From NCBI GenBank assembly GCA_017446095.1, contig JAFSRN010000008.1, forward strand, positions 1 through 64,000: a stretch of 64,000 bases of DNA, written 5' to 3'. This DNA comes from Eubacterium sp. Its GTDB lineage: Bacteria > Bacillota > Clostridia > Oscillospirales > Acutalibacteraceae. A program made the position numbers and the translations under genes. Shown in pieces: positions 36,078-59,984 of the stretch. Under the pieces are notes generated by a model. The model did not search any database and was not told the DNA's origin. It saw nothing but the letters and a program-made list of their open reading frames with translations. The first letter of the stretch is position 1. Every line of letters begins with the position of its first letter.

Positions 36078-36306
36078 TAGCCAAAAACACGGTACACCGA
36101 ATGGTGTACCGTGTTGACTATGTTTTGACGTTTTTGGCGTCCCTCGTCAAAACACATTCCGTGATTAAACTATTTTGCAAGCAAAACAGTAACAATCACT
36201 ACATATGTTTTTCCTCTCCGTGCAAAATTTCGCTTCGCTGCTTTTTGCACGGCATTATGGGTTTATAGCCAAAAACACGGTACACCCCAATGGTGTACCG
36301 TGTTTT
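36078..36306 (-). repeat. Element B1 with duplicated tRNA-Arg 3' end and terminator
   Basis: The tRNA-Arg terminator and 3' tail occur twice. One copy is decayed (36078-36143, ending in TTTTTGGCGTCCC); the other is real (36266-36315). Between them lies element B1: outer stem AAAACACAT (36149-36157)/ATATGTTTT (36203-36211), inner stem GTGATT (36161-36166)/AATCAC (36194-36199), an apical hairpin around TTTTGC/GCAAAA, then TCCTCTCC and a hairpin GTGCAAAA/TTTTGCAC (36219-36250). It contains no gene. The same element, with paired base changes, sits beside rpsI. Confidence 0.8.
36271..36305 (-). terminator. tRNA-Arg terminator
   Basis: AAAAACACGGTACACC/GGTGTACCGTGTTTTT stem-loop directly after the tRNA CCA end on the minus strand. 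Confidence 0.88.
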
Positions 36307-36383
36307 TGGCGTCCCAGAAGGGAGTCGAACCCCCGACCTTTCGCTTAGGAGGCGAACGCTCTATCCTACTGAGCTACTGAGAC
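36307..36383 (-). tRNA. tRNA-Arg (CCT)
   Basis: This is a 77-nt cloverleaf. Acceptor GTCTCAG pairs with CTGGGAC, the anticodon loop is CTCCTAA (anticodon CCT), the T loop has TTCGACT, and discriminator G is followed by an encoded CCA. It has its own promoter and terminator. The last bases (GGGACGCCA) are copied 172 bp away next to element B1. Confidence 0.95.
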
Positions 36384-56960: not shown

Positions 56961-57440
56961 ATGAAAAGAATACTTATAATAACGAGTTCACTTTTAATGG
57001 TGCTACTTGTTTTTGCTGGTTGCACAACAGCCGGAACACAAAGCGATTCAACCGACGATGGATCAATAGTGATTACTCCAGAAAATGCTGAAGATTATTT
57101 GGAAATGAATTTAGAAATAGAACGATTTGATTATAATAGTATGAATGGTAAAGTATATACTGATCACGAAAGCCATAATGCGTTTATAATATCGGGAGAT
57201 ATCAATGGAATTAGCGGTTATAGATATGAAAATGTGGAATTAACTATTGAATGTATAGTTAACAGTGATGTGCCTATTGTTAACACAAACACTAAAGGTC
57301 GAGAGTTTAAAACAACAGTTTCTCTTAGTTCTGCAGGTAACGCCACAGTAGAAGAGGGATTTCAGTGTTGGATTGGAAAAGAAACAGATTCTACTATTAC
57401 TTATAAAATAGTTGAAGCAAGCGGTACAGTTTATCACTAA
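56961..57440 (+). CDS. Small lipoprotein of the AT-rich cassette
   Basis: This 159-residue exported protein has a lipobox FAGC (Cys 21) followed by a short Ser/Thr/Asp linker and one beta-rich domain (45-159) with alternating strands (YRYENVELTIECIVN, GREFKTTVSLSSAG). No family recognised. The ribosome site AAAGGAGG is strong. Codon use is much more AT-rich than in the flanking genes. It is the cargo of the XRE-controlled cassette; a role in surface protection or fitness is only a guess. Confidence 0.75.
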   Translation: MKRILIITSSLLMVLLVFAGCTTAGTQSDSTDDGSIVITPENAEDYLEMNLEIERFDYNSMNGKVYTDHESHNAFIISGDINGISGYRYENVELTIECIVNSDVPIVNTNTKGREFKTTVSLSSAGNATVEEGFQCWIGKETDSTITYKIVEASGTVYH

Positions 57441-57494
57441 TTTGATATGTAGAAAAAGAAAAAAATAGAGAGACGGTTCCCACATAGAATGGGA

Positions 57495-57583
57495 GCTGTC
57501 GCATTTATGCGACGGATTGTAACAACCCCTCCGTCTTGCCTTCGGCAATCCCCCTCCCTTTACACAAGGGAGGCGTTTTTTTG
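57495..57583. repeat. Right hairpin block of the cassette
   Basis: Three hairpins in a row: GTCGCATTTATGCGAC (57498-57513), TTGCC/GGCAA (57536-57549) and CCTCCCTT/AAGGGAGG (57553-57573) with a following T tract. The last one mirrors the hairpin at 56394-56414. Confidence 0.7.
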
Positions 57584-57594
57584 CAAAAACTTTT

Positions 57595-58008
57595 CCGCCG
57601 CGCAAAAATAAAACGTCCCTGCTTTTTGCAAGGACGTTGTAATCTGTAAAACTATCTCTTTGAGAACTGTCGAAACGTTAAGAAAACAGTCCGGTGGACT
57701 GTTTTTAGTTTCGACCGCAGCGGCTAAGCCGCGAGGACCCGCAGTTTTTGCGATTTCAAAAAAGAAAAAACGCTCCCTTTTCGGAAGCGTTTGTGAAAAA
57801 CTATCTCTTGCTGAACTGCGGTGCGCATCGTCCAAACAGCCTGCGTGATTAAATGTATTTGCTTTGCAAACACATAACAATCACTACGGCTGTTTCTCCT
57901 CTCCCCAAAAAATCTGCGATTTTTCGGGGACCCCGATGATTTTGAAGCAGCCCGCCGCGCAAAAATAAAACGTCCCTGCTTTTTGCAAGGACGTTGTAAT
58001 CTGTAAAA
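57595..58008 (-). repeat. Stacked rpsI 3'-end copies with elements D and B2
   Basis: The rpsI 3' end plus terminator (57952-58027) is repeated perfectly, 76 bp, at 57595-57670. A third, changed copy at 57801-57827 still encodes RCAPQFSKR-stop on the minus strand and has its own small terminator. Between copies lie element D (57671-57766; CGAAAC/GTTTCG stem with AAAACAGTCC/GGACTGTTTT) and element B2 (57828-57951). B2 has outer stem AAACAGCC/GGCTGTTT, inner GTGATT/AATCAC, TCCTCTCC and a GGGG-closed hairpin, the same plan as B1. There is no gene inside. Confidence 0.85.
57967..57995 (-). terminator. rpsI terminator
   Basis: Minus strand AACGTCC/GGACGTT stem with T-rich tail, within the duplicated 76-bp block. 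Confidence 0.85.
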
Positions 58009-58407
58009 CTATCTCTTTGAGAACTGTGGTGCACGGCGGGCTGCTTTGAGACCGTACTTCTTTCTTTCCTTCATACGTGGGTCACGAGTGAGGAAGCCAG
58101 CCTTCTTGAGTGCAGGACGAAGGTTTTCGTCATACTGAAGGAGAGCTCTTGAAAGACCGTGGCGGATTGCACCTGCCTGACCTGTTACACCGCCGCCGTT
58201 AACGCGGCAAACGATGTCAAACTTTTCAGCTGTATCGGTGAGAACGAGCGGCTGACGAACGATGAGCTTAAGTGTTTCAAGACCAAAGTAATCGTCGATA
58301 TCTCTGTCGTTAATAGTGATTTTGCCGGTACCTGCATATACGCGTACGCGTGCTACAGATTCTTTTCTTCTGCCTGTTCCGTAGAAATAAGGATTTGATT
58401 CGTACAT
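58009..58407 (-). CDS. rpsI: Ribosomal protein S9
   Basis: This 132-residue protein of the small subunit has a C-terminal tail that reaches the P-site tRNA. Blocks are [34 protein letters not shown] and the basic end [14 protein letters not shown]. The ribosome site AGGGAGG precedes the ATG at 58407. The gene follows rplM by 16 bp in the universal L13-S9 operon. Its 3' end is a target site: two more copies of the end lie downstream beside structured elements. Confidence 0.97.
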
Positions 58408-58423
58408 ATGCTACATACCTCCC

Positions 58424-58852
58424 TTAAAATTCCCAAGCTTCAGGCTTCTGAGCCTCGTGCTTGTGCTCTGCATTTTTGAAAATTCTGCATCTTGTGAGCT
58501 GCTTTCTGCCGAGAGTTGTGTCAGGAATCATACCCTTAACAGCAAGTTTCATAGCGAAATCGCTCTTGTCCTTCATCAGGGTGCCGTACTTAACCTCTTT
58601 GAGGTTTCCGATATAACCGGAGTGGTGCTGATAAAGCTTTTTGTTGAGTTTGTCACCGGTAAGAACAACCTTGTCGGTGTTAATAATAATTACGAAATCA
58701 CCGCAGTCTACGTTAGGTGTGAAGATTGCCTTGTGCTTACCTCTGAGAAGTACAGCAGCCTCTGCAGCAACTCTGCCGAGCGGCTTGTCAGCGGCATCAA
58801 TCACATACCACTTGCGTTCGATTTCGTCAGCTTTTGGCATAAATGTTGACAT
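58424..58852 (-). CDS. rplM: Ribosomal protein L13
   Basis: The start was set at ATG 58852 with GGAGG; the long frame adds 46 residues that read through the promoter and cannot be real. The 142-residue product carries KWYVIDAADKPLGRVAAEAAVLLRGKHK, NVDCGDFVIIINTDKVVLTGDK and GMIPDTTLGRKQLTRCRIF. It assembles early into the large subunit. It forms an operon with rpsI and has a strong promoter. Confidence 0.97.
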   Translation of the reverse strand: MSTFMPKADEIERKWYVIDAADKPLGRVAAEAAVLLRGKHKAIFTPNVDCGDFVIIINTDKVVLTGDKLNKKLYQHHSGYIGNLKEVKYGTLMKDKSDFAMKLAVKGMIPDTTLGRKQLTRCRIFKNAEHKHEAQKPEAWEF

Positions 58853-58888
58853 AATCGTGTCCTCCAAAATTATTTTTAATGCTTGGTT

Positions 58889-58917
58889 ATCATACCAAAA
58901 CACATAAAAAAAGTCAA
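58889..58917 (-). promoter_or_regulatory. SigmaA promoter of rplM-rpsI
   Basis: Minus strand TTGACT (58917-58912), 17-bp spacer, TATGAT (58894-58889). Confidence 0.85.
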
Positions 58918-59010
58918 TACTTAAATTAAAATAATTTAGGGTTGCTCGCGTTTCCTCGCTTTTTCTTCGTTTTTCTATGCATTTACTCATTTATAATTTA
59001 CACAAAAAAG

Positions 59011-59039
59011 TTGACCTGCGCCCCATATATAGGTATAAT
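59011..59039 (+). promoter_or_regulatory. SigmaA promoter of the PfkB kinase gene
   Basis: TTGACC (59011-59016), 17-bp spacer, TATAAT (59034-59039). Confidence 0.85.
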
Positions 59040-59084
59040 ATAAACAGCAGGCTTCACATAAAAATACAAGAAAGGAATGATTAT

Positions 59085-59984
59085 ATGGTATATACCGTAA
59101 CATTTAACCCTGCACTTGACTACACACTTAACACAGACAACCTGAAAAACGGAACAGGTGTAATTAACCGCGCAAAGACAGCCGACCTGCACTACGGCGG
59201 CAAGGGCATTAACGTTTCGGCTGTGCTGACTATGCTCGGCGTGCCCAACAAAGCGCTCGGCTTTGTGGCAGGCTTTACAGGCAGAGAGCTTGAATCCCTG
59301 CTTAATGCAGACAACATCAACTGCGACTTCATCAGACTTGAGCAAGGTCAGACGCGTATTAACGTTAAAATCAAATCCGATGACGAAATGGAAATCAACG
59401 CCCCCGGTCCGGAAATCGGCGACGATGATATAGAAAAACTTATGTCCAAGCTCGGCAAGATGGACAGCGGCGATTTTCTTGTGCTGTCCGGCTCTGTGCC
59501 GAAAAACCTGCCTGCTGATATTTACGAGCAGATTCTCAGCAAGCTTGAAGGCAAGGATATCAAAGTAATCGTTGACGCAACAGGCAGCCTGCTGACGGAA
59601 ACACTTAAACACAAGCCGTTCCTTATTAAGCCGAACCGTACCGAGCTTGGCGAAATCTTTAATACGGAAATCAAAACAGGTACGGACGTAGATAACTACG
59701 CGGCAGAATTGCAGCGTATGGGTGCGCAAAACGTGCTTGTTTCCCTTTCAAAAAACGGCGCGATGCTGCTTGACGAAAGCGGAAAAATCCACCGCGTAAG
59801 CGCAATTAAGGGCAAGCGCGTTAACAGCGTAGGCTGCGGCGACAGTATGGTTGCAGGCTTTATTGCAGGCTACATCAACACAAACGACTTTGAGTACGCG
59901 CTCAAGCTCGGTAACGCCTGCGGCGGCGCAACCGCATTTTCCGAAGCACTTGCAAGCAAGGAAGAACTTGCCAAATATATTTAA
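59085..59984 (+). CDS. fruK: PfkB-family sugar-phosphate kinase, likely 1-phosphofructokinase
   Basis: The start was set at ATG 59085 with AAAGGA; the product is 299 residues. The family signatures are complete: N-terminal FNPALDYTLNTDNLKNGTGVINRAKTADLHYGGKGINVSAVL and C-terminal GKRVNSVGCGDSMVAGFIAGYI with the catalytic Asp in GCGDS. The closest functional match by motif is 1-phosphofructokinase (fructose-1-phosphate to the bisphosphate). No fruA transporter or regulator is adjacent, so tagatose-6-phosphate kinase remains possible; lacZ in the window would fit the latter loosely. Confidence 0.88.
   Translation: MVYTVTFNPALDYTLNTDNLKNGTGVINRAKTADLHYGGKGINVSAVLTMLGVPNKALGFVAGFTGRELESLLNADNINCDFIRLEQGQTRINVKIKSDDEMEINAPGPEIGDDDIEKLMSKLGKMDSGDFLVLSGSVPKNLPADIYEQILSKLEGKDIKVIVDATGSLLTETLKHKPFLIKPNRTELGEIFNTEIKTGTDVDNYAAELQRMGAQNVLVSLSKNGAMLLDESGKIHRVSAIKGKRVNSVGCGDSMVAGFIAGYINTNDFEYALKLGNACGGATAFSEALASKEELAKYI

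Follow-up and report, generated by a model that had tools for sequence, protein, structure and literature searches.

Behind the gene for ribosomal protein S9 (rpsI) in the 64,000-nucleotide stretch of DNA analysed here (the window), from Eubacterium sp., a bacterium of gut or rumen, the 3' end of the gene occurs three times around two folded sequences. The live gene (58009–58407, minus strand, as are the other parts of this locus) encodes 132 amino acids and ends in RRAPQFSKR. Along the direction of rpsI, its end is followed by terminator 1, an antisense copy of the gene end and element B, and then by a changed rpsI end, terminator 2, element D, a third rpsI end and terminator 3. The two outermost ends and their terminators are identical and belong to a perfect 76-bp repeat, the first member of which (57952–58027) also includes the start of the antisense copy, while the second (57595–57670) contains the third end and terminator 3. 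The hairpin of terminator 1 (57970–57994) is followed by a T-run (57961–57969). The antisense copy (AAGCAGCCCGCCGCGCA, 57945–57961) pairs with positions 58030–58046 over 17 nt at 94%. Element B (57828–57929) is composed of a P1 hairpin, the sequence GAGAGGA, a P2 hairpin and the right end GACGA. P2 is a stack of three helices interrupted by small internal loops, and it has unpaired spacers and a variable tip. The changed rpsI end (57801–57827) starts directly after the GACGA of B, and is followed by terminator 2 (57770–57790) of the type AACGCTTCC..GGAGCGTT and by element D (57670–57744), which forms two hairpins and is unrelated to B.

The initial annotation had described the perfect repeat, a diverged rpsI end enclosed by it, and the order of the parts, all of which we find as stated; the antisense copy had been overlooked. 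The changed end also keeps the protein reading, as had been claimed: it has its stop codon at 57801–57803 and can be read back to 57827 as APQFSKR-stop, with CAGTTCAGCAAGAGATAG in place of the live CAGTTCTCAAAGAGATAG. The motif AACTATCTCTTTGAGAACTG, with up to three mismatches allowed, occurs in the window at 57650, 57799 (three mismatches) and 58007 only, and 100 shuffled sequences gave a mean and a maximum of zero sites. Folded as single-stranded DNA, positions 57800–58050 reach −61 kcal/mol (z −8.55, none of 200 shuffles as low) in two parts: a long hairpin of the antisense copy that encloses terminator 1, and the two hairpins of B. The live rpsI is intact. By reading, the 433-bp interval 57595–58027 appears to hold no gene; its listed frames are mechanical and overlap the repeats. 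Searches of the whole window against Rfam 15 gave two tRNAs at the gathering score and no intron, and within 57000–59500 the matches were weak, below gathering, and indicated no family. A common intergenic palindrome, CCCTCCCTTTACACAAGGGAGGCG, is located just past the third rpsI end (57520–57582), and similar sequences flank copies of B in genomes G034 and G039.

Both B and D are repeated. The B sequence has 12 matches at E <1e-9 in the window's own genome, and D has 6 at E <1e-3, the last of them a fragment. An alignment of 15 B copies contains 28 predicted pairs, 16 of which have changes on both sides. The predicted partners give a covariation score of 0.461, shuffled ones 0.158 (none of 500 shuffles reached the value of the predicted ones) and slid ones 0.05–0.10; the fold of B is thus conserved rather than its sequence, as in integron attC sites. 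For D, an alignment of 15 rpsI loci gives 24 consensus pairs, of which 13 have changed on both sides. A model search detected B in 39 of 60 genomes of the same genus, with up to 42 copies per genome (G039 42, G002 27, G034 23, G029 17, G050 15, G005 14, G007 13, G000 12, G031 12). Across the order, 9 of 147 genomes match, of which two belong to the genus itself and seven, outside it, have single weak matches of 32–39 bits that are probably due to chance, and B looks restricted to the genus. A strict B pattern was found in 36 stretches of named genome records, mostly labelled as Eubacterium, Oscillospiraceae, Ruminococcaceae, Clostridiales or Clostridia MAGs, several of them from rumen or gut. 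One contig is labelled Bacteroides sp. (L217, JAMPEQ010000002.1) and is perhaps a mis-binned record, or a case of transfer. Viral contigs contained no match to one strict B pattern.

The right end of B is nearly invariant. We collected 100 loci from the best matches, sampling the model matches in part and leaving out L090, L109–L111, L113, L117–L125 and L135, mostly near-duplicates, as well as L179–L188. The set comprises 121 matches, 118 of them unique and 108 with enough flanking sequence. The last five bases of the unique copies are GACGA in 96, GACGC in 10 and GACGT in 7. At 44 of the 108 sites (46 in another run of the test), the sequence to the right of B has a direct copy within 320 nt to its left that scores above the best of 100 shuffles, compared with 5 of 106 for a control query taken 80–150 nt further on; at 64 of the 108 there is no significant flanking copy. 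In 35 of the 108, the direct target copy starts 0–1 base after B. Outside arrays the duplications are 13–103 bp long, which differs from the short target duplication of fixed length expected of MITE/DDE elements. Many run as far as the terminator's T-run: the copy in L051, 73 bp without a difference, ends exactly there, and by reading the homology stops at the same feature in L042 and L060. Between the T-run and the body, many sites contain an antisense copy that spans the junction.

More than 10 different sequences follow the right end of B. The junctions in tRNA genes are GGTTC|AAGTCC in tRNA-Leu and GGTTC|GAGTCC in tRNA-Arg, and tRNA-Ser and tRNA-Val are also among the targets. Other junctions are CGTC|GCGCACC in rpsI, AAGAAG|AGCGAAGC in rpsU, TACTTGG|AGGGCAGC in the end of a 5S-like rRNA and GCAAGA|CACGGTAAGG in a rubrerythrin-like gene, the last three targets being named as read from sequence. 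The two elements at rpsI in the window are members of a genus-wide set of small, gene-less repeated elements of roughly 100–250 bp that share one layout: a gene 3' end, a terminator, a junction-spanning antisense copy, a folded body, and a second gene end with its terminator.

A second B copy in the window (36144–36252) lies behind tRNA-Arg(CCT) and is followed by a diverged copy of the tRNA 3' end with a terminator (36081–36143), identified by reading and present as a direct repeat in L023. Positions 36081–36310 hold the tRNA gene, a terminator, B, and the diverged tRNA end with a terminator that contains an inverted copy of the B end. When this site was surveyed in 30 loci by way of its neighbouring gene, tRNA-Arg(CCT) was there in two only, too few for statistics: the window's own and L292, which by reading has a different body again at tRNA-Arg. 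The window's genome contains 39 tRNA genes, 30 of them testable. Nine of the 30 are followed within 300 nt by a copy of their own 3' end; four of these nine also have an antisense copy that scores above the best of 200 shuffles, and two further genes have the antisense copy only. By reading, other bodies occur in the same layout at tRNA-Gly, tRNA-Trp and tRNA-Gln of this genome and at rpsI in L062 and L199. Units are also found in arrays, of 178 bp repeated 3.3 times behind tRNA-Ser in G039 and of 172 bp repeated 2.2 times at 99% identity behind tRNA-Trp in the window's genome (L339, G000:C16, about 60.8 kb). The body of the latter array is unlike B and D, and the array looks recent.

The earlier proposal that extra rpsI ends accompany gene-less elements holds across the genus. 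Of 60 genomes, 55 gave a match to rpsI; we read 50 of these loci and left out the partial-match genomes G004, G006, G011, G021 and G026. An element or its remnant is present in 24 of the 50 (49 loci scored by script and L207 by eye): B in 6, D in 16, both in 3, E-like sequences in 3 and other antisense-bearing sequences in 2. A short TCAAGAGATAA behind the terminator of L075 was left out of this count. In L207, an assembly gap covers the live rpsI end, and D was counted there with no judgement on the number of ends. The number of rpsI ends varies from one to three, with a second end in 20 loci by script and three ends in the window (L050), L052 and L056, all with B followed by D.

The initial annotation had suggested that the changed end came from another strain. 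Four of 49 loci (L068, L071, L079 and L201) have an end of its AGC-AAG-AGA type on their live rpsI, which fits an outside origin; all four carry a TAA stop, and a live TAG occurs in the window only. One comparison shows that an element can bring its own gene end. The proximal terminator of L062 scores 7.0 and 6.0 against the element-free relatives L064 (rpsI identity 98.0%) and L065 (93.2%), while its distal terminator scores 20.5 and 22.5. The proximal terminator is thus foreign and the distal one ancestral, so that in this case both a gene end and a terminator came in with the insertion. Locus L077 points weakly in the same direction (19.5 versus 28.0), and L062 is the only sister pair with a clearly foreign proximal terminator. 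In 9 of the 20 loci with a second end (L051, L059, L060, L189, L191, L195, L199, L201, L208), terminators 1 and 2 hardly differ (score at least 35), which would fit local duplication or conversion. The history of D speaks against distant strains as a frequent source. In a tree of 48 rpsI genes, of which 12 of 45 inner branches are starred and which has weak support, the presence of D in 14 of 48 rows requires 12 changes, compared with a mean of 12.3 for shuffled rows, and the identity of D follows that of rpsI with r 0.72 over 91 pairs. Locus L208, with 64 N in rpsI at an assembly gap, was excluded from the tree and the correlation. As its presence is scattered and its sequence follows rpsI, D is suggested to be an old resident that was often lost, or one re-inserted within the lineage, and recent transfer is less likely. 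For the window, we infer that D was inserted before B and that ends 1 and 3 were homogenised afterwards.

We scored the antisense region of each locus against its own rpsI end and against the ends of 48 other genomes. The six B loci (L050, L051, L052, L053, L056, L057) and L062, L076, L079 and L199 score 11.0–17.0 with their own end, equalled by 0–4 of the 48 foreign ends. At B and E loci the arm therefore matches the codons of its own genome, either because it was copied there or because the pairing is under selection. Loci with D only have no preference for their own genome, except for L201. The element-free L064 reached 10.0, with 1 of 48 foreign ends as high.

The gene end, terminator and antisense arm are common to unrelated bodies, and on this basis we propose that a small circle was inserted by site-specific strand exchange, the leading explanation, which we favour only tentatively. 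The unit of gene 3' part, terminator, antisense arm and body would move as a small, perhaps single-stranded, circle. Its antisense arm would pair with the half-site in the gene end and in this way contribute to a folded site for recombination. One strand might then be exchanged at the junction, for example at GGTTC|AAGTCC in the T-loops of tRNA genes, by a tyrosine recombinase provided in trans. After the exchange both half-sites would match the antisense arm, which could drive the reaction forward, and replication would resolve the product. The cassette would act like the folded site of an integron cassette, with gene 3' ends as acceptors. We count for strand exchange the fixed right end of B with its adjoining direct copies, the covariation in B and D, the host-fitted antisense arms, the end and terminator carried into L062, the scattered presence of D, the arrays, and the Phage_integrase domains in 56 of 60 genomes. 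Counted against it are the B sites that lack a flanking copy, the D-only arms without preference, the swap score of the element-free L064, the single clear pair at L062, the weak signal at L077, and the nine loci with near-identical terminators. The body end GACGA is dissimilar to the gene half-site that it would replace, and fixed-overlap integration by a tyrosine recombinase does not explain why B has more than 10 right flanks. Neither an integrase nor any other recombinase could be linked to the elements. Two copies of B near integrase genes (G039:C42, G013:C5) were considered as an autonomous form and were read as neighbours, not as ends of one element.

The comparison with integrons has limits. 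The proposed exchange resembles the one described for integron sites, in which a strand folded on itself recombines with duplex DNA and replication resolves the product (PMC4792948). The elements described here resemble integron cassettes and attC arrays, including clusters without an integrase, in that small cassettes occur in arrays and fold is conserved more than sequence, and P2 of B is like such sites in its stacked helices, spacers and tip; unlike those, they have no cargo genes, use the 3' end of a host gene as acceptor, and carry a target-specific antisense arm. The integron R box has the consensus GTTRRRY, which the B ends GTTTGGACGA, GTTTTGACGA, GTTTAGACGA and GTTCTGACGA do not follow. 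None of the 60 genomes has an integron integrase (TIGR02249) above the curated cut-off, with sub-threshold matches in 55 of them, and because of this and of the different end box the elements are not an integron. Phages integrated by Xer and IMEX of the CTX type also combine a folded single-strand substrate with a borrowed host recombinase, as proposed here; they insert at dif and carry genes, whereas the present elements occupy many gene ends and carry none.

Template switching is an alternative that we consider only slightly less probable. A replication fork stalled at the terminator would first copy a short stretch of the gene end in antisense and next a folded element located elsewhere, before it resumed in the gene; the product would be inherited, homogenised and often lost. 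The near-identical first two terminators in nine loci agree with this, as do the homology that ends at the T-run in L051 (and by reading in L042 and L060), the host-specific antisense arms, and the way D follows the divergence of its hosts. The tracking of rpsI by D slightly lowered our estimate for strand exchange and slightly raised that for template switching. However, template switching does not account well for the same bodies with a fixed right end and compensatory changes at many loci, nor for the non-local proximal terminator of L062.

It is quite unlikely that the elements spread through RNA, with an element RNA pairing through its antisense arm with a transcript, being joined to the 3' part of that transcript, and entering the genome as cDNA. 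Such a route would explain why duplications stop where a transcript does, and they do reach the T-run, in L051 exactly; the bodies also fold as RNA, and the RNAs of several target genes are usually abundant. However, a reverse transcriptase, which a retroelement would need in copy-rich genomes, is unsupported as the driver of B: RVT_1 (PF00078) is present in 16 of the 60 genomes and in none of the nine with at least 12 B copies, of which G002, G034 and G050 are 81–88% complete. Group IIC introns use terminators and antisense pairing to the target, as the present elements may. The latter differ in the duplicated target, the absence of an Rfam intron match in the window, and the absence of RVT_1 from the genomes richest in B.

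We give little credence to the view that the elements are deletion remnants of ICEs or islands that decayed at rpsI and tRNA 3' ends and left their attachment-site flanks. The 3' end of the target is duplicated on both sides of the inserted DNA, in the window repeats and at B sites, as it is at ICE/IME elements, yet as far as can be read the 433-bp interval has mechanical frames only and no integrase gene of its own. Integrase-like genes, read from frames, lie shortly behind rpsI in L070, L200 and L204/L288, and integrative elements seem to use the rpsI site in this genus. This part of the earlier suggestion, that the rpsI 3' end is a target of integrative elements, thus finds support. Its narrower form does not: tRNA genes, too, carry B and D in the same layout, and B is found at 5S-like, rpsU and rubrerythrin-like genes; B and D moreover begin their duplications at different points of rpsI. 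Taken as a whole, the initial interpretation is partly supported. The streptococcal ICEs use the same class of target, in that rpsI and tRNA 3' ends are among their known sites (PMC4701971); they carry integrase and conjugation genes, unlike the small gene-less units found here. An island-end-like partial tRNA-Arg fragment, from the anticodon loop onward, lies beside an element in L043, where there is no intact tRNA, and a similar fragment lies in L103. Both fragments, next to D or B, are like island attachment ends with a junction different from that of B and D. Against decay stand the bodies themselves, which form conserved families, covary in structure, have fixed ends and are common to unrelated targets, and the order of B followed by D in the three genomes with three rpsI ends.

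The least probable origin, which we consider hardly credible, is that a Y1/RAYT transposase moves B as a hairpin of the REP or IS200/IS605 type: the hairpins of B with an unpaired 5' foot, the head-to-head B pairs in G039 and the Y1_Tnp domains in 31 of 60 genomes speak for it, but none of the 20 loci fetched among the 70 matches listed has B at E ≤0.01 (best E 0.28), different palindromes lie beside the gene in 8 of 9 loci with flanks read, and the B-rich G034 and G029 have no Y1_Tnp match, which leaves Y1/RAYT unsupported as the driver of B. The RAYT-like genes of L266–L281 (185–249 amino acids in the eight that were read) have palindromes such as TTGGGGACTGTCCCCAA nearby. MITEs, REP/BIME, ERIC and BOX sequences are short, dispersed, palindromic and non-coding. 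B shares these properties and differs in duplications of variable length that start from the fixed end of the body and in many cases extend to the terminator, in the antisense arm to the target, and in the several unrelated bodies that share one layout.

The units may even be a new kind of mobile element, a reading that we regard as unlikely and that the tracking of rpsI by D made slightly less likely still. They would be gene-less cassettes in single-stranded form that carry their own guide, the antisense arm, matched to the two halves of the target; a borrowed recombinase would let them move on from tRNA genes to those for ribosomal proteins and 5S RNA. Our literature search found no report of gene-less elements with a target-matched antisense arm and exchangeable bodies, which is weak evidence because subscription journals and bioRxiv were mostly outside its coverage. 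Were the elements mobile, 9 of 30 testable tRNA genes of a single genome would carry tiny, easily missed insertions that duplicate the gene end, often with its terminator, and we know of no smaller site-specific integrating elements. The target-matched antisense arm suggests that the target is chosen by base pairing, and the identity of the mover becomes a directly testable question. Where tRNA and ribosomal genes are followed by several 3' ends or by sequences that look like attachment sites, such elements offer an explanation as well.

Some B copies are part of larger assemblies. In G039 and G034, many near-identical copies (L109–L128) are embedded in composite repeats of larger size. Several of the copies lie where a contig ends and some form head-to-head pairs. 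This suggests a recent spread by another route, without clear duplication of gene ends. Behind tRNA-Ser(GGA) in L289 (G000:C13:76500-79500) and L021, the tip of P1 contains repeat C (TTCG..GACCGCTGCC..GGCACCGCCCGCCGT), an element nested in an element, and a sequence related to repeat C follows tRNA-Asn behind window 1853 (L336). In L025 (G000:C2:167604-167713), B is located between two palindromes, TGTTTCATGTGAAACA and TGTTTCACGTGAAACA, which we take to be parS-like.
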